A DNA stretch of 64,000 bases from an uncultured delta proteobacterium. GTDB taxonomy: Bacteria > Desulfobacterota > Desulfovibrionia > Desulfovibrionales > Desulfovibrionaceae. Positions 13,498 through 42,770 of this stretch are shown piece after piece; positions within the stretch are counted from its first letter, which is position 1, and each line of letters begins with the position of its first letter. Below the pieces are notes generated by a model, which saw only the letters and a program-made list of their open reading frames with translations, did not search any database and had not been told where the DNA came from. Made by a program: the position numbers and the translations under genes. The stretch is from assembly GCA_903835685.1 (NCBI GenBank), contig CAILNX010000060.1:1-64000 (forward strand), written 5' to 3'.

Positions 13498-13525
13498 ACG
13501 TCCCGTTTCTCTTCCAGGAGGTTTG

Positions 13526-14407
13526 ATGCGTTGGTCCCTGCTGGCGATCACGGCCGCGCTCCTTCTGGTTTCATGGAGCCTGGTCGCCGCAGCCAACGCG
13601 GCGCGGGTGGTGTATTACGACCCGACCATCCGGGACATCGTGGCCAGGGATTGCTCCCGTTGCCATTCCGGGCCGGTCAGGAATCTCATGAGCTACCCGG
13701 CCCTGAAAAGCTATGCGGACCGGGGCGTTCTCGGAGCCATGGTCCAGAGCCTGATGCGCCAGTTCGCCGGACCCGACGCAGGCCCCATTCTGGACTGGAT
13801 CGCCGCCGGAGCGCCCGAAAAGGCTCCGGGTGCGGCCGGGTCGGGAAAATCGGCCACACCGGCCGCCGCGCAGAAAATCTATTTCGAACCCACGGTCCGG
13901 GACATCATCGTCCGGGACTGCGGGCGTTGCCATTCCGGCAAATCGAGGAACCTGACGGACTGGGACCATATCCGGGTCTATGTGGACAACGGCATGCTCG
14001 AGGCCATGCTCCAGGGCCCCATGCAGCGTTTTGCCGGACCCGACGCCGACGTCATCCTGGCCTGGATCAAGTCCGGAGCCTCGGAGAACCCGCCCAAGTC
14101 CGGAGGCGGTGCGACTCCCGCCGCCCTGGTCTGCCCGACGCCGCCAGGGGGGGGCTTCCAGATGCGGCAACAACCTATGGCGGGAAACATTACCTATACG
14201 AATACCATCGCTGATGTTTTGAACAGGGACTGTCTCCGTTGCCACCTGGGCCCGTTCCGCAAGCTGACAACGTATGAGGACGTGAAATTCTATGTGGACA
14301 ACGGGCTCCTGGAGACCCTGGTGATGACTGGCGGCCCCATGCACCGCTTCGCCGGCCCGGATACAAAATTCTTCATGATGTGGATCAGAGCAGGAGCTCC
14401 CAGATGA
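13526..14407 (+). CDS. Exported trihaem c-type cytochrome, magnetosome-cluster type
   Basis: A 293-residue protein with AGGAGG before ATG 13526. Residues 1-26 form a signal peptide or anchor. Three tandem domains follow, each with one haem-attachment motif: CSRCH 43-47, CGRCH 132-136, CLRCH 236-240. Each haem motif is followed by a conserved FAGPDA-type stretch and W-I-x-x-G-A. Linkers are Ala/Gly/Pro-rich. It would carry electrons in the periplasm or magnetosome lumen, plausibly poising Fe(II)/Fe(III). A close paralogue lies at 51622-52527, and a one-domain membrane version at 17566-18216. The haem-domain pattern differs from the H-x-x-W-G-x-C-x-x-C-H magnetochrome of the MamP-like protein. 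Confidence 0.82.
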   Translation: MRWSLLAITAALLLVSWSLVAAANAARVVYYDPTIRDIVARDCSRCHSGPVRNLMSYPALKSYADRGVLGAMVQSLMRQFAGPDAGPILDWIAAGAPEKAPGAAGSGKSATPAAAQKIYFEPTVRDIIVRDCGRCHSGKSRNLTDWDHIRVYVDNGMLEAMLQGPMQRFAGPDADVILAWIKSGASENPPKSGGGATPAALVCPTPPGGGFQMRQQPMAGNITYTNTIADVLNRDCLRCHLGPFRKLTTYEDVKFYVDNGLLETLVMTGGPMHRFAGPDTKFFMMWIRAGAPR

Positions 14408-14434: not shown

Positions 14435-16075
14435 ATGTTCAAAACCTTCTTCGTGGGAAAAGATTTGGGACTCCTCGGGTCGGAAAAGACTCCCATGTGG
14501 ATTCTGGTGGCCGCCATATGCGCCACCATGGGCCTCATGTTCTTCATCCTCCGCTGGGTGGACTCGCCGCTTCCCCTCTGCCCCAACCCGGACGACGCCC
14601 CGGAACCCACCCTGGCAGTGACCCAAAGCCTTCCCCGGATCACGGAGAAATCATTTCCCGCCGGACTGGGGAGCGGACAGATACGACTCATCGGCACCCC
14701 TCTTCCCACTGGCATCGGAAACCAGCCCATGCAGTTGATCCGGCAGAATGGCCCCTATCTGGGCCTGGTCTTAAGTCCCGCTCCGCCGGATGCTGCGGCC
14801 AGACTCGGGCTCGCCGCAGGTGGCGGCGTCGTGGTGACGAGCGTGGTTGCCGGTTCTCCCGGCCAGAAGGCAGGAATCCTCCCGGGCGACGTTCTGCTGC
14901 GCATGGACGGGACCGATCTCGGAACCCCCGAGGACATGGGGGCCATCCTTTCCGGGAAGAAGGCCGGGGATGCGGTCAAAGTCGTTTACGACCGCCAGGG
15001 CGCCCGGAAATCCACGCACCTCACCCTGGCCAACGTGCCCCTGGGGGTGGAGGTGGCGGTCACGGCTGATGGCCCGTGGCTGGGTCTTGACGTCCAGGAC
15101 ATCGACGCGGTCATGGGCGTCCAGTTCAACCTGCCGGACACCCGGGGGGTCATCGTCACTTCCGTGGCCCCGGGCTCTCCGGCCCTGGCGGCGGGCCTGG
15201 CCACCGGGGACGTCATCCGCCGGGTGGCCCAGACCCGGATCAGGGACGTGGTCCAGTTCCAGGCCGTGGTCGCCAAGACCAGGTCGGGGCAGTCCCTGCG
15301 CCTCTCCCTGCTGCGGGCCGGATCGCCCCTTGAGGCGGACCTGATGGTGGGTGTGCCGCCCCTGGCTCCGCAATCCGTGCCCATGCTCGGGGCAGCCAGC
15401 GTCGATATCGAGGCGACCTGGATCGGCATGTCCCTGGCGGAACTCACGCCTGGGAATGCGGCCTCCATGAACCTGCCTTCAAGCCTGCGGGGCATCCTGG
15501 TCGTGGACGTCGACGGGCCTCCGGCCACCATGTCCGGATTCATGACCGGAGACGTCATCCTGTCCATCAACACCCGGGAGACGCCGGACCTGCAAACCTT
15601 CATGAAGGCCGCCCAGGGGCAGAACAGCGCGGCGGTGGTGGTGTATCGGGGCGGCAAGCACATGTTCGTCAGCGTGGCTCCTGCGGGATACACGCCCCAG
15701 GGCACGCAGTTGAAGACCGGGCTGGACCAGCGATTCCGGCAGGTGGCCCTGACCCGCCCGGGATTCTTGGCCGCCCTGGCCGAGGACAAGTCCCTCACCG
15801 CCCCGGTCAGCACGGAGAACAACGCCCAGGCCGTCATCATCCTGGATCCGGCCAAGGGGACCTACTCCATCAAGGAACTCAGCCAACGCCTTCCGCTGGC
15901 CGAATTCCTCCGGCAGAACGGCGTGACCGCCCTCGTCTGCAGAAACCTCGCCCAGGTCACGGCCGACGATTTGGCGGCCAAGGGAATCGCCGTCAGCAAC
16001 GGGGCGGCCGGTCCCGTAGGCCAGGTGCTGTCCCAATACCAGAAACAAACCCGGGCGGCCCCGGCCGGACCATAG
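14435..16075 (+). CDS. Membrane-anchored triple-PDZ protein with C-terminal NifX-like domain
   Basis: A 546-residue protein: a transmembrane helix at ~22-42, a short conserved GIGNQPMQLI segment, then three PDZ domains (about 105-200, 205-305, 315-405). Each PDZ shows the G-L-A-x-G-D-V-I pattern. Residues ~425-535 (LAEDKSLTAPVSTENNAQAV, then QNGVTALVCRNL, AAKGIAVSNG) match the fold pattern of the dinitrogenase Fe-Mo cofactor (NifX/NifB-like) domain. There is no protease domain. It resembles the C-terminal part of MamE made as a separate protein. The 559-residue protein at 45959-47638 is its full-length paralogue. It may scaffold peptide tails and bind a metal cluster; the metal role is inferred from the domain family. 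Confidence 0.75.
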   Translation: MFKTFFVGKDLGLLGSEKTPMWILVAAICATMGLMFFILRWVDSPLPLCPNPDDAPEPTLAVTQSLPRITEKSFPAGLGSGQIRLIGTPLPTGIGNQPMQLIRQNGPYLGLVLSPAPPDAAARLGLAAGGGVVVTSVVAGSPGQKAGILPGDVLLRMDGTDLGTPEDMGAILSGKKAGDAVKVVYDRQGARKSTHLTLANVPLGVEVAVTADGPWLGLDVQDIDAVMGVQFNLPDTRGVIVTSVAPGSPALAAGLATGDVIRRVAQTRIRDVVQFQAVVAKTRSGQSLRLSLLRAGSPLEADLMVGVPPLAPQSVPMLGAASVDIEATWIGMSLAELTPGNAASMNLPSSLRGILVVDVDGPPATMSGFMTGDVILSINTRETPDLQTFMKAAQGQNSAAVVVYRGGKHMFVSVAPAGYTPQGTQLKTGLDQRFRQVALTRPGFLAALAEDKSLTAPVSTENNAQAVIILDPAKGTYSIKELSQRLPLAEFLRQNGVTALVCRNLAQVTADDLAAKGIAVSNGAAGPVGQVLSQYQKQTRAAPAGP

Positions 16076-16134: not shown

Positions 16135-16710
16135 ATGGCCACACACACCCGGAAGGTTCACACCGACCAGATCTCGTTTTTCGAGACGTACATGGGGCTC
16201 AAGCCGAGAGTGCTGGTGATTTTCGCCGCGTCCATCGCCGGGGCCGCCCTGGTTTCGACAGCGGTATATTGGGGAATTTTCGGATTCCGGCATTGGAACA
16301 AGGAGGTCACGGTGGCGGGCAGAATCCTGACTGCGGCCGCGCCCCTGCAGGCCGTGCAGGGTCAAGTCGGTGCCCTGCCCGGCCAGTACGTCTGCCCGGT
16401 GCACGGGGCCGTGGGCCTGCCCCGGTTCAATGCCGCCGGAACGCCCCTGTGCCCGGTGGGCGGGGAGGTCATGCAGTTCCGCAGCCTGGACACAGCAGGC
16501 CTGACCCAGGCCGCCTTTGCCGGTGGCTGAGGTGGCGGCGCTGGCCCGGTGGGCCAGTTCAACACCGTCGCCTTTGCCGGAACCTCGAAAGTTCCGGCCA
16601 CCGCTCCACTCGGACAGAATGCGCGCGAAACCATGATGGACGCCGCCCAGGTCGCCTTCACGGGCGGCTGAGGCGGAACTGCTGGCCCGGTGGGCCAGAA
16701 TTTCAGATAA
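16135..16710 (+). CDS. Putative two-selenocysteine membrane protein (UGA read-through)
   Basis: The conventional frame stops at TGA 16528-16530, but the frame stays open to a second TGA at 16669-16671 and ends at TAA 16708-16710, giving 191 residues if both UGAs encode Sec (U132, U179). Each UGA sits in the same peptide: AFAGG-U-GGGAGPVGQ and AFTGG-U-GGTAGPVGQ. A third copy is in the paralogue at 42327-42770. Each is followed by an identical SECIS-like hairpin. The protein has one transmembrane helix (~25-50) and a CPVHG...CPVGG pair (C87, C106) like the heavy-metal-binding CPxHP motif. It lies between the PDZ/NifX protein and the polyferredoxin, so redox chemistry at metals is plausible. I do not recognise a named family. 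Confidence 0.72.
16528..16557 (+). promoter_or_regulatory. SECIS-like element 1 with its UGA
   Basis: TGA at 16528-16530, ten bases, then the perfect hairpin CTGGCCCGGTGGGCCAG at 16541-16557: seven base pairs closing a GGU loop. Bacterial SECIS elements lie directly downstream of the UGA inside the coding region, with a G-containing apical loop roughly 16-37 bases away. Here the loop begins 18 bases after the A of UGA. Confidence 0.65.
16669..16698 (+). promoter_or_regulatory. SECIS-like element 2 with its UGA
   Basis: TGA at 16669-16671, ten bases, then the same 17-base hairpin at 16682-16698. It has the same spacing and loop as element 1, although the sequence between the two repeats is unrelated. 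No T run follows, so it is not an intrinsic terminator. Confidence 0.65.
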
Positions 16711-16733
16711 CAAGACCAGGACGAACAAGACGC

Positions 16734-17579
16734 ATGATGAATCTTTCCCGCTTCAGACCCCTTATCCAACTCGCCAGTTCGGTGTTCACCAACGGCTATG
16801 CGGGCGTATTCGTCACCCGGGCGGTCAACGACAATCCCCTCAAGGGGCTGTGTGTGCCCTATCTGAATTGCTATGCTTGTCCATCGGCCCTGTTTTCCTG
16901 CCCCATCGGAACCCTGCAGCATTTCATGGCCATCCGCTCCATTCCCTTTCTGCTCCTGGGCATGCTGGGAGCGGTGGGCCTGGCCATAGGTCGCATGCCC
17001 TGCGGCTGGGCCTGCCCATTCGGATTTGTTCAGGACCTGCTGCACAAGATCCCCTCCCCAAAGTTTGCGGTTCCCCGGTTCCTGCGGCCATTCAAGTACG
17101 CATTTTTGCTCATCTTCGTCCTGCTCCTGCCGTTTTTGACCGGAGACAACTGGTTTTCCAAGATATGCCCGGCAGGCACCCTGCTCGCGGCCATACCCTG
17201 GGTGGTCTGGAACCCGGCCTCTCCCGAAACGGGCCTGCCGGTGCTCCCGAATCCGCCGGGGCTGCAGTTCCTGGCCGTGGTGGCCAGCCTCTGCGGCTTC
17301 CTGGTCTGGTTCGTCCTGTCCAAACGACCCTTTTGCCAGGCGGTCTGCCCCATGGGGGCCATCCTGTCCCTGTTCAACCGGACCAGCCTCATCCGGCTGG
17401 AGGTGGCCGAGAATTGCGACGCCTGCAATTTCTGCAATGTCAACTGCCCCATGGGGCTCACGGTGCCGCTGGAGATCAATTCGAGGGAATGCATCCGCTG
17501 CCTCGAATGCACCCGGTGCGGCCACGTGAAGATCACCTATCCCTTTGCAAGCGGAGACCTGTGTGATGAACGACTTTGA
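16734..17579 (+). CDS. NapH-like membrane polyferredoxin
   Basis: A 281-residue membrane iron-sulfur protein. It has about four hydrophobic segments (for example FLLLGMLGAVGLAIG, then AFLLIFVLLLPFL and FLAVVASLCGFLVWFVL). The Cys motifs CPYLNCYACP-like, PCGWACPFG and FCQAVCPMG are arranged as in NapH/CcoG-type quinol-to-periplasm electron-transfer proteins. The C-terminus holds two 4Fe-4S motifs, CDACNFCNVNCP and CIRCLECTRCG. It would pass electrons from the quinone pool to the haem proteins encoded beside it. ATG 16734 (or 16737) gives the same MMN start as its paralogue at 41465-42304 (MMQ). Its 3' end overlaps the next gene by 14 bases. It may correspond to one of the named mad genes, but I cannot say which. 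Confidence 0.82.
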   Translation: MMNLSRFRPLIQLASSVFTNGYAGVFVTRAVNDNPLKGLCVPYLNCYACPSALFSCPIGTLQHFMAIRSIPFLLLGMLGAVGLAIGRMPCGWACPFGFVQDLLHKIPSPKFAVPRFLRPFKYAFLLIFVLLLPFLTGDNWFSKICPAGTLLAAIPWVVWNPASPETGLPVLPNPPGLQFLAVVASLCGFLVWFVLSKRPFCQAVCPMGAILSLFNRTSLIRLEVAENCDACNFCNVNCPMGLTVPLEINSRECIRCLECTRCGHVKITYPFASGDLCDERL

Positions 17580-18216
17580 TTTCCCCTGGCTGTCCGAGAA
17601 AAACATTCTTCTGCTCATCGGCCTGGTCCTGTTTGTCATCGTCCTGGTGGTGTCGCTGGTGCTGAGCAAGGCCGAAAAGAAGCCCCAGAGCCCCCAGGCC
17701 ATGGCCGCCGCCGCGTTCGCCCCGGGCAATTCGGCGCGTACCTGGCGGCCTCTCCCCCAACGCCCGGGACTGGTCACCGCCGCAGCCCGCATGGTGTATT
17801 ACGAGCCCACCATCCGCGACATCATCACCGCAGATTGCAGCCAGTGCCATTCCGGCGCCGTGCGGAATCTTATGGATTACGACAGCCTGCGCGCCTATGC
17901 CGACAGCGGCATGCTGGCGGCCATGGTCCAGGGCCCCATGGCCCAGTTCGCCGGTTCCGATGTCGACGCCATCCTGGCCTGGGTGGACGCCGGGGCTCCG
18001 GAGAAACCCTCCAAGGCGGCGGGCCCCACTCCCGCAGCCATGGTCCGGAATCAGCCGGGCATTGGTGGCGGCATGGGCGGCGGCATGGGCCAGGGCATGG
18101 GCCAGGGCATGGGCCAGGGCCTGGGCAGCTGGACGCCGCTCCCGCAGCCCTCGGGCGGCGGGGGCCGCAGCCAGGGGCAGGCCCCGGTCAGGGCCTATCA
18201 GGGGCCGGTTCAATAA
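17566..18216 (+). CDS. Membrane-anchored monohaem protein with Gly/Met/Gln repeat
   Basis: A 216-residue protein with one N-terminal transmembrane helix (~12-34), a KPQSPQAM segment, then one cytochrome domain with CSQCH, built like the domains of the trihaem proteins. After it come four G-M-G-Q-type repeats encoded by a 12-bp tandem repeat and the C-terminal tail VRAYQGPVQ. The paralogue at 41032-41472 keeps the helix, KPQSPQAM and the tail (IRAYKGPMQ) but has no haem motif, so the tail is under selection. The start overlaps the upstream polyferredoxin gene, so they are translationally coupled. The likely role is electron transfer at the vesicle membrane. Confidence 0.75.
   Translation: MNDFDFPWLSEKNILLLIGLVLFVIVLVVSLVLSKAEKKPQSPQAMAAAAFAPGNSARTWRPLPQRPGLVTAAARMVYYEPTIRDIITADCSQCHSGAVRNLMDYDSLRAYADSGMLAAMVQGPMAQFAGSDVDAILAWVDAGAPEKPSKAAGPTPAAMVRNQPGIGGGMGGGMGQGMGQGMGQGLGSWTPLPQPSGGGGRSQGQAPVRAYQGPVQ
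18070..18129 (+). repeat. 12-bp tandem repeat coding for Gly-Met-Gly-Gln
   Basis: The unit GGCATGGGCCAG is repeated exactly at 18082-18093, 18094-18105 and 18106-18117, with imperfect copies on both sides. The length is in register with the frame, so copy-number changes would lengthen or shorten the protein without a frameshift. Confidence 0.85.
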
Positions 18217-40937: not shown

Positions 40938-41035
40938 GGATGCGGCTCCGTGTGCTCGTCGTGGTCGGTCTCGCCGTGCGGCCCGGCCCCCATGGTCATT
41001 GTCGCGGTCATCGTCCTGTTCACTGCACTGGTCAT
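40931..41035 (-). CDS. His/Asp/Glu-rich micro-ORF, doubly overlapping
   Basis: Thirty-four codons. The ATG overlaps the stop of the upstream gene (ATGA at 41035-41032), and its stop overlaps the ATG of the LapA-like gene. The product is Met/Thr-rich, then GPHGETDHDEHTEPHPC, a tail dense in His, Asp and Glu that could hold metal ions. It has no hydrophobic helix. Being overlapped on both sides favours translation. Lack of conservation data keeps confidence low. Confidence 0.42.
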   Translation of the reverse strand: MTSAVNRTMTATMTMGAGPHGETDHDEHTEPHPC

Positions 41036-41472
41036 TGCATGGGCCCCTTGTAGGCCCGAATCGGGGGTGCGCCTCCGGCGGGGTTTCCCGCAACGCCAGC
41101 ACCGGCCGCACCGGGCAGGGCGGTCCAGCCCCCCTGTCCTCCCCAGGCCGCCGCCTGGGGCTGGACGGGAGCGGGGGTCGGCGCGGCTGGCGACGCGTCG
41201 GGCAGAGGACGCCAGACCGGCCGCTCCACGGCTGCCGGGTGATAGATCAGGGGCTGCTGCCCCATGCCGGGCTGCCACTCCAATCCGTTGGGGGAGATGG
41301 GGCTGGAAAAAAGGTCGGTCAGGGCCGCCGCCACCATGGCCTGGGGGCTCTGGGGCTTGGTCCTGGCCCGGCCCAAGACGAAAACCAGCACGAGCATCAC
41401 CACGACCAGGACGGCCCCGATGGCCAGAAAGACCTGTGTGTTGCTCCACCCCTTGCATGGTTGGTCAGACAT
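41032..41472 (-). CDS. Membrane protein, haem-less paralogue of the 17.6-kb monohaem protein
   Basis: A 146-residue protein. It has one N-terminal helix (~12-34), KPQSPQAMVAAAL, then a Pro/Ala/Gln-rich low-complexity region with Trp spaced (EWQPGMGQQ, RPVWRPLPDA, AWGGQGGWTAL), ending PPIRAYKGPMQ. It lacks the cytochrome domain and CXXCH of its paralogue at 17566-18216 but shares the N-terminus and the final R-A-Y-x-G-P-x-Q. The start overlaps the polyferredoxin stop. The shared tail could be a docking signal. Confidence 0.68.
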   Translation of the reverse strand: MSDQPCKGWSNTQVFLAIGAVLVVVMLVLVFVLGRARTKPQSPQAMVAAALTDLFSSPISPNGLEWQPGMGQQPLIYHPAAVERPVWRPLPDASPAAPTPAPVQPQAAAWGGQGGWTALPGAAGAGVAGNPAGGAPPIRAYKGPMQ

Positions 41473-42304
41473 GGGTTTCCCCTCCGAAATCCCAGGGTTT
41501 CGCGACCTTGACGTATCCGCATCTGGTGCATTCCAGGCAGCGGATGCATTCCAGCGAATTGATCTCCAGCGGCACGTCCAGGTCCATGGGGCAATTGACC
41601 TGGCAGGCGTTGCAGGCGTCGCAATCTTCGTTCACTTCCAGGCGTACCAGGCTAAACTTGTTGAAAACCGACAGGATGGCCCCCATGGGGCACACGGTCT
41701 GGCAGAAGGGGCGCTTGGACAGGACAAACCAGACCAGAAAAAGCAGCAGGCTGACCAGAACGGCAACGAACTGGAGGCCGGGCATGGCCGGGAGCACGTT
41801 CTGCCCCGTGGCCGGATTGGCCGGGTTCCAGAGCATCCAGGGGATGGCCGCAGTCAAGGTCCCTGCCGGGCATATTTTGGAAAACCAAGTGTCGCCGGTC
41901 AGATAGGGCAAGATCAAGACGAACACGGCCAGGAAGCCGTACTTGAAGGGCCGCAGAAAGTGTGGAACTCTGAATTTCGGGGATGGAATCTTGTGCATCA
42001 GGTCCTGGATGAAGCCGAAGGGACAGGCCCAGCCGCAGGGCATGCGGCCTATGGCCGTCCCGATGACCCCAAGAAAACCGAGGAGAAGGAAAGGCACGGA
42101 GCGGATGGCCATGAAATGCTGCAACGTCCCGATGGGACAGGAGAAGAGCGCCGAGGGACAGGCGTAGCAGTTCAGGTAGGGAACGCACACGCCCTTCAAG
42201 GGGTTCGCGTTCACCGCCCTGGTGGCGAACACCCCAACATAGCCGTTGGTGAGCACCGAACTGGCCAGTTGGATGAGGGTTCTAAACCGGGAAAGCTGCA
42301 TCAT
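41465..42304 (-). CDS. NapH-like membrane polyferredoxin (paralogue of the 16.7-kb protein)
   Basis: A 279-residue protein, highly similar over its length to the one at 16734-17579. It has the same CPYLNCYACPSALFSCP-type segment, PCGWACPFGF, SKICPAGTL, FCQTVCPMG, and two C-terminal 4Fe-4S motifs (CDACNACQVNC, CIRCLECTRCG). ATG 42304 gives MMQ, as its paralogue gives MMN. The gene follows the putative selenoprotein by 22 bases, exactly as in the left copy. It would move electrons across the magnetosome or inner membrane. Confidence 0.82.
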   Translation of the reverse strand: MMQLSRFRTLIQLASSVLTNGYVGVFATRAVNANPLKGVCVPYLNCYACPSALFSCPIGTLQHFMAIRSVPFLLLGFLGVIGTAIGRMPCGWACPFGFIQDLMHKIPSPKFRVPHFLRPFKYGFLAVFVLILPYLTGDTWFSKICPAGTLTAAIPWMLWNPANPATGQNVLPAMPGLQFVAVLVSLLLFLVWFVLSKRPFCQTVCPMGAILSVFNKFSLVRLEVNEDCDACNACQVNCPMDLDVPLEINSLECIRCLECTRCGYVKVAKPWDFGGETHV

Positions 42305-42326
42305 TCCACCTGTTGTTTCAATCAAA

Positions 42327-42770
42327 TCAGCGAACGGTCTGCTGGCCCACCGGGCCAGTTGCGGGGCCGCCTCAGCCGCCCGCGAAAGCAGCCGGGGTCG
42401 CGCCCGGCGCGGTCACGCACCGAACGAACTGCATCACCTCCCCACCCAGGGGGCAGACCGGCACTCCGGCGGCGTTGAACCGGGGCAGCCCCACGGCGCC
42501 GTGCACGGGGCAGACGTACTGCCCGCTCTGCTGGCCCATTTGCTGGCCAGCACCCTGCATGGGGGCCACGGCGGCGGCGGTCATGATCCTGCCCGCCACG
42601 GTCACTTCCTTCTTCCACTGGCCGAACCCGAAGACGCCCCAATAGATGGCCGTGGCCACCAGGGCCGCCCCGGCGATGGACCCGACGAAAATGGCGATGT
42701 TCTGCGGCCGGATGCCGAAATAGGTCCGGCAGATCGACGGTCCTTCAAAAAAATCTTTCAACGTCCACAT
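42327..42770 (-). CDS. Putative selenocysteine-containing membrane protein (one UGA)
   Basis: The conventional frame stops at a TGA (42374-42372). Continuing in frame gives GGPATGPVGQQTVR and stops at TGA 42329-42327, making 147 residues with Sec at 133. The peptide AFAGG-U-GGPATGPVGQ matches both UGA sites of the left paralogue, and the same 17-nt hairpin follows. The N-terminus has one transmembrane helix (~25-50), followed by QYVCPVHGAVGLPRFNAA and CPLGG (C87, C106), shared almost word for word with the paralogue. ATG 42770 has GGGTGGAG upstream. The next gene starts 22 bases later. Confidence 0.72.
42342..42374 (-). promoter_or_regulatory. SECIS-like element 3 with its UGA
   Basis: On the minus strand, TGA (42374-42372) is followed by 13 bases and then CTGGCCCGGTGGGCCAG (42358-42342), identical to the two elements at 16.5-16.7 kb. 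The spacer is exactly one codon longer, as expected for a translated sequence. The loop starts about 21 bases from the UGA, within the bacterial SECIS range. Confidence 0.65.

Follow-up and report, generated by a model that had tools for sequence, protein, structure and literature searches.

The in-frame UGA codons of mad4, a gene of the magnetosome region in the window (by which we mean the whole stretch of 64,000 nucleotides analysed here), are, as far as sequence can show, almost certainly decoded as selenocysteine (Sec). What the DNA itself provides are the UGAs, the hairpins behind them, the sequence conserved beyond them and the genome's genes for Sec insertion. In the proposed mechanism, a hairpin just downstream of each UGA would direct Sec insertion, and SelB together with tRNA-Sec would decode the mad4 UGAs as Sec in both copies of the window. 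Beyond an earlier sequence-only reading of the first copy, our data add a second copy, the identity as Mad4, the occurrence in Desulfovibrio magneticus RS-1 and a Sec motif on a MamI-like protein of one genus. The features of the first copy are:

16135..16710, plus strand: complete mad4 copy 1, 191 aa when both TGAs are taken as Sec (U132 and U179), with a TAA stop (from the reading frame and homologues)
16528..16530, plus strand: Sec codon 1 of mad4 copy 1, TGA
16669..16671, plus strand: Sec codon 2 of mad4 copy 1, TGA
16541..16557, plus strand: SECIS-like hairpin 1 of copy 1, CTGGCCC-GGT-GGGCCAG, loop 17 nt past the TGA
16682..16698, plus strand: SECIS-like hairpin 2 of copy 1, identical in sequence to hairpin 1, loop 17 nt past the TGA

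The frame of copy 1 opens with ATG at 16135 and, with its two internal TGAs at 16528 and 16669 read through, stays open to TAA at 16708-16710, just as the sequence-only reading had described it. The peptide runs ...AFAGG-U-GGGAGPVGQ... around the first Sec codon and ...AFTGG-U-GGTAGPVGQNFR around the second, which bears out the shared context AF[A/T]GG-U-GGxAGPVGQ, and the identical hairpin claimed for both places is indeed there, CTGGCCCGGTGGGCCAG standing at 16541-16557 and at 16682-16698, each time 10 nt past its TGA. One count needs correction: the spacing of 141 nt between the TGAs corresponds to 46 codons and not to the 47 given before. Ordinary annotation truncates the protein, as had been expected, since the table-11 ORF stops at 16530 after 131 aa. 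Both hairpins are of the SECIS type that had been suggested, as they fit our strict form of the bSECIS model from the literature, which describes a stable stem and a loop of 3-9 nt with G in the first two positions, 16-37 nt from the UGA (PMC13188914). Each taken alone, they are only moderately unusual given the GC-rich DNA: compared with dinucleotide shuffles, hairpin 1 reaches z -3.65 over 48 nt and -0.85 over 33 nt, and hairpin 2 -1.38 over 42 nt and -1.87 over 33 nt.

When the read-through product of copy 1 was searched against the genome of the window, a second copy was returned (65% identity over 136 residues), and a mad6-like gene lies directly downstream of each:

42327..42770, minus strand: mad4 copy 2, 147 aa with one Sec; ordinary TGA stop at 42327-42329
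42372..42374, minus strand: Sec codon of mad4 copy 2, TGA
42342..42358, minus strand: SECIS-like hairpin of mad4 copy 2, loop 20 nt past the TGA
16734..17579, plus strand: mad6-like gene for a 4Fe-4S membrane protein of the NapH type, immediately after mad4 copy 1
41465..42304, minus strand: mad6-like gene immediately after mad4 copy 2, assigned by similarity to the first mad6-like copy and a shared sequence pattern
41032..41472, minus strand: MamI-like gene after the second mad6-like gene, without the Sec motif that the corresponding genes of five genomes in a single genus carry at their end

The TGA of copy 2 is found at the place equivalent to the copy 1 TGA, and the peptide reads ...AFAGG-U-GGPATGPVGQQTVR before the ordinary TGA stop. 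Its hairpin equals that of copy 1, shifted one codon further from the TGA, and a shift by a whole codon is as expected of coding sequence. The two sets of mad4, mad6 and MamI-like gene (16135-18216 and 41032-42770) are on opposite strands, about 25 kb apart, and both sit inside the larger magnetosome gene region of the window. The window also encodes a triple-PDZ protein (14435-16072, plus strand) with a C-terminal NifX-like domain (Nitro_FeMo-Co, just above the cut-off), whose tail reads GAAGPVGQ as in the Mad4 arm, and, between the MamA-like and PDZ genes, a protein (13523-14407, plus strand) with three heme-type C-x-x-C-H motifs (CSRCH, CGRCH, CLRCH).

We assign the family to Mad4 by homology and gene order, not by comparison with an annotated Mad4 sequence or length. 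One of the searched genomes (G262) agrees with RS-1 at 10 of 10 published base positions, and codon 177 of its mad6 turns from CAG into TAG by the published change; therefore, this genome is that of D. magneticus RS-1. Its homologue (4641268-4641714) is located directly before mad6, hence the name of the family. In RS-1, Mad6 (DMR_41050) is described as mostly a NapH domain and mamO as DMR_41070 (PMC4287615), and in FSS-1 the locus tags run MamE-Nter, Mad4, Mad6 (PMC7951924); from this locus-tag order we infer that the RS-1 homologue is DMR_41060. By sequence pattern, a mad6-like ORF follows 16 of 21 mad4 genes, including both copies of the window. The likeness of the window genes to the Mad4 of RS-1 and FSS-1 consists in homology (RS-1) and in the place directly before Mad6, while the string "selen" is absent from the main texts of the papers concerned (PMC4287615, PMC12748827, PMC7951924). 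Mass spectrometry found Mad4 enriched in early-stage RS-1 magnetosomes, using a translated RS-1 protein database (PMC12748827).

Altogether, 21 Mad4 genes were found in 17 genomes, and every one of them carries a TGA in a Gly/Ala/Pro-rich motif. The search covered 288 genomes of the family (4 with Mad4, the window's genome counted), 395 sampled evenly from a larger set for the phylum (5 with Mad4, the window's genome again counted), three of one order (2 with Mad4) and 241 of one class, likewise drawn evenly (10 with Mad4); in addition, a collection of 84,980 species was scanned by two peptide patterns only, yielding 31 stretches at 7 loci. Homologue rows L003 (E 0.6), L025 (a second piece of the second G135 gene) and L070 (MamI-like, with the knuckle and a TGA end, without the Sec motif) were dropped. 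The 37 motif TGAs are distributed as one in 8 genes, two in 11, three in one gene (G491) and four in another (G813). We thus see no homologues in which the gene closes at the first TGA and only unrelated sequence follows. The expectation that relatives would carry Cys for Sec failed: none of the 21 genes has Cys at the Sec position, which takes away the customary argument from Sec/Cys pairs, although distant or Cys-bearing homologues may escape this search, and nearly all selenoproteins have Cys homologues according to a 2026 review (PMC13188914). In the second mad4 gene of G363 (L047:8149-8297), one repeat has CGA (Arg) and another TGA; the CGA is one transition away from TGA and is still followed by a hairpin (score 18), so that this repeat looks like a lost Sec codon.

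The extension past the TGA is itself conserved. Versions of LGQNARETMMDA recur past the first TGA in copy 1 of the window, in RS-1 and in G135. The second mad4 copies of RS-1 and G135 (L041:8905-9522 and L043:10882-11493) have two Sec codons each, and the 1.5 kb downstream of them contain no mad6-like gene; the two-Sec copy of the window shares their architecture but adjoins a mad6-like gene. In Desulfamplus (G678, G686, G795, G818), the motif reads LALAAGG-U-PPP, and a further copy of it occurs directly past the membrane helix, upstream of a conserved CPVHG domain, which in consequence lies wholly downstream of the first TGA. Past this TGA the Desulfamplus genes are under purifying selection, with dN/dS of 0.18, 0.18, 0.07 and 0.21 for four pairs (132-141 codons), compared with 0.04, 0.15, 0.53 and 0.20 before it. 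Other pairs give weaker estimates (G292-G363 0.17 over 14 codons; G666-G703 0.40 over 40 codons), as do close pairs of Desulfovibrionaceae genes, where pN/pS is 0.33-0.57 over 13-71 codons with partly saturated synonymous sites. Past the last TGA, some pairs retain only 3-4 codons, too few for a useful estimate.

It is the homologous motif TGAs, rather than the individual hairpins of the window, that decide the hairpin case. We scored the best stem with a loop of 3-5 nt, G in its first two places and a loop start 20-28 nt from the T of the TGA, a narrow range that was chosen post hoc with the data already viewed. All 42 motif TGAs (37 in Mad4 and 5 in MamI-like genes) score at least 12, compared with 654 of 11,425 other TGAs of the same loci (5.7%); at a threshold of 13.5 the proportions are 41 of 42 and 3.3% of the 11,425 controls, and with a wider scoring range 42 of 42 and 14.9%. 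The 42 sites belong to related genes, hence are not independent, and comprise 32 distinct stem-loops. They include the fourth TGA of the G813 gene (AAP-U-PGG), whose motif is less typical and which we accepted as Sec because its hairpin scores 21. Left out were the presumed end TGA of copy 2 and the TGA three codons after it, the presumed end TGAs of Mad4 and of the MamI-like gene in G667, and one TGA each in G703 and G813 that precedes the start codon. The strict version of the published bSECIS model fits 29 of the 42 sites, among them all sites of the window (three), RS-1 and G135, versus 6.7% in a sample of 3,000 of the 11,425 controls; the remaining 13 deviate in stability or by an early mismatch. 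An Rfam search returned no SECIS family at the window sites of copy 1 and copy 2. A Sec-motif DNA pattern run on 13 genomes gave 24 rows, of which 3 lie in known mad4 genes, alongside 4 control matches, and revealed no further Sec protein; a scan of TGA-ended ORFs at 18 loci gave, besides the Mad4 and MamI-like sites, many matches resembling chance.

These data bear on the strongest competitor, namely that translation really ends at the UGA, with the short product as the working protein and the conserved extension made only now and then through read-through by near-cognate tRNAs. UGA is in fact the commonest stop among 19 hand-picked ORFs of the window, ending 11 of them, and the detection of Mad4 in RS-1 magnetosome proteomics is compatible with either length (PMC12748827). 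However, a genuine stop is hard to reconcile with a first Desulfamplus TGA that precedes the conserved CPVHG domain, with the purifying selection behind it or with as many as four TGAs in one gene. Moreover, the presumed ordinary end TGAs of Mad4 and MamI-like genes (n=8) score 2.8, 0, 0, 8.1, 8, 12.3, 3 and 2, so that at the score reached by 42 of 42 motif sites only one of eight follows suit. The first two values, 2.8 and 0, are those of the two Mad4 genes ending in TGA. The one at 12.3, the end TGA of the G135 MamI-like gene, equals the weakest motif site, and therefore the score separates the classes well, not perfectly. On balance, we regard genuine termination as very improbable.

Sec insertion also has the machinery it needs. 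All of the genes on which the sequence-only reading depends are present in the window's genome: selA (608 bits) and selB (368 bits), both above the cut-off and on one contig (C9), selD (347 bits) with an in-frame TGA of its own, and tRNA-Sec (selC) with 82.7 bits versus a gathering score of 47, the tRNA-Sec search having covered this genome only. Three of the four FdhA genes above the cut-off in this genome have an in-frame TGA followed by a hairpin with the loop GGC, of the same type as in Mad4; with Rfam SECIS_3 these FdhA hairpins remain below the gathering score (E 6.5e-5 to 0.0015). In 16 of the 17 Mad4 genomes (all but that of L027), selB is above the cut-off in 16, selA in 14 and selD in 13; the selB of G363 is a partial match only (positions 1-301), and the genomes with a selA or selD gap (G292, G363, G813, G818) are drafts, all less than 90% complete. 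G155 and G037, two genomes in which our threshold detected no Mad4, have selA, selB and selD all above the cut-off, and thus the Sec machinery is not Mad4-specific. Together with the homologues and the hairpins, this machinery supports the earlier proposal of a two-Sec membrane protein in a magnetosome cluster.

The nature of the inserted residue cannot be deduced from sequence alone, which leaves some room for decoding of UGA as another amino acid by a suppressor tRNA or a changed code. A changed genetic code is rejected, since TGA is an ordinary stop in 11 of the 19 ORFs and copy 2 uses it once internally with a hairpin and once as the final stop without one. This dual use and the complete Sec pathway also speak against a suppressor, so that insertion of a different residue appears still less probable than genuine termination.

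The chance is negligible that the hairpins are a by-product of Gly-Pro-Val-Gly-Gln coding in a GC-rich genome and the TGAs errors or decay: GCTGGCCCGGTGGGCCAG is one natural coding of AGPVGQ and hairpin 1 reaches only the z of -0.85 over 33 nt, but the mean score of 32 sites is 17.9 versus 5.5 (sd 0.66) in dinucleotide shuffles, the motif TGA is present in all 21 genes, and the hairpin survives both changes of the peptide (VGSGSRL or PPGGSVNL) and positions beyond the gene's own stop codon, and therefore is not dictated by GPVGQ codons. Examples from divergent peptides are GTCGGCTC-GGG-GAGCCGAC in the second copy of RS-1 and GAGGTTC-GGT-GAACCTC in G292.

With decoding as Sec as the preferred reading, Mad4 resembles bacterial bSECIS selenoproteins such as FdhA and SelD in the UGA, the downstream hairpin with G in the loop and the use of SelB and tRNA-Sec. 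In contrast to these, it is a membrane protein of the magnetosome cluster with one to four Sec in Gly-rich arms, its Sec has neither a catalytic Cys partner nor a known fold surrounding it, and no Cys homologue was found. A few of the known families (such as MbdU, UXX-star and selenobacteriocin) have 2-3 Sec or a name implying a Sec near the C-terminus; none of them is named as a magnetosome protein, and "magneto" is absent from the text of the review (PMC13188914). Among the 119 families of this 2026 review, as far as its accessible part describes them, there is nothing like Mad4, the comparison drawing on names and motifs and, for just those families that have an NCBIfam model, also on sequence (PMC13188914). 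The statement that no selenoprotein has been described in a magnetosome cluster agrees with the open-licence literature, in which we found no paper naming one. Magnetotactic bacteria with selenium granules have been recorded (cited in PMC12805115).

If Mad4 is a selenoprotein, the table-11 gene model removes its reactive end, deletion and proteomic studies built on that model would miss this end, and experiments on biomineralisation have to reckon with the supply of selenium as a variable. In a family without Cys homologues, the chemistry of the arm becomes a testable question, and the Sec reading would point to an unsuspected role of selenium in bacterial magnetite formation. A genome-editing method is reportedly at hand for RS-1.

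As judged from its sequence, full-length Mad4 would have a single membrane helix, a small domain resembling a metal knuckle (C-P-x-H-G ... C-P-x-[CG]-G) and a Gly/Ala/Pro-rich arm with one to four Sec in motifs of the type AAxGG-U-xPPxGxxGG. The Sec arms are probably flexible: AlphaFold2 models of 18 sequences are poor (mean pLDDT 64.8, pTM 0.29), with one long helix, two short strands and low-confidence Sec arms. The knuckle produced only sub-threshold zinc-ribbon and zinc-finger matches to profiles. A Pfam search gave no family for Mad4 and a PDB sequence search no match at E<=1; NCBIfam release 20, searched with 18 full-length members, has no Mad4 model and no family matching the window copy, and its zinc-finger model HVO_2523 appears in 2 of the 18 (best E 0.00068), below the cut-off where seen. 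By the positive-inside rule, basic residues before a membrane helix point to its orientation. Because basic residues precede the helix of Mad4 at its N-terminus, the arm is predicted to face the magnetosome lumen. There, with the neighbouring NapH-like Mad6 as a partner, the selenols might transfer electrons or handle iron while magnetite forms, a role that we put forward tentatively; the putative chemistry may be redox coupling to Mad6 or direct iron coordination.

The Sec motif extends to a second protein. In five genomes labelled as one genus (G678, G686, G795, G818, G667), the MamI-like gene downstream of mad6 bears it, either at the C-terminus as ...LAAFG-U-PP or near the end as ...TAAGG-U-VPP...; it is absent from the MamI-like genes of the window, RS-1, G135, G166, G666, G292 and the related L070 (G491). 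The latter (L070:1501-1794; G491:C23:35869-36162) encodes a MamI-like protein with a Mad4-type CPTHG...CPICN knuckle, and from this gene the Mad4 knuckle and the Sec arm seem to be separable modules. It is conceivable, if somewhat doubtful, that magnetite formation in Desulfobacterota is selenium-dependent: lumenal, reactive Sec arms of Mad4 and of the MamI-like protein of one genus would perform iron redox chemistry or coordination for which Cys is no substitute. The family would then be Sec-only, and its arm module would have been passed on to a second protein of the organelle. The MamI-like protein of the window (41032-41472, minus strand) contains AAAWGGQGGW, which resembles AAWAGG-U-GG of Mad4 with Gln in place of Sec and is possibly a former Sec arm, or a chance likeness.
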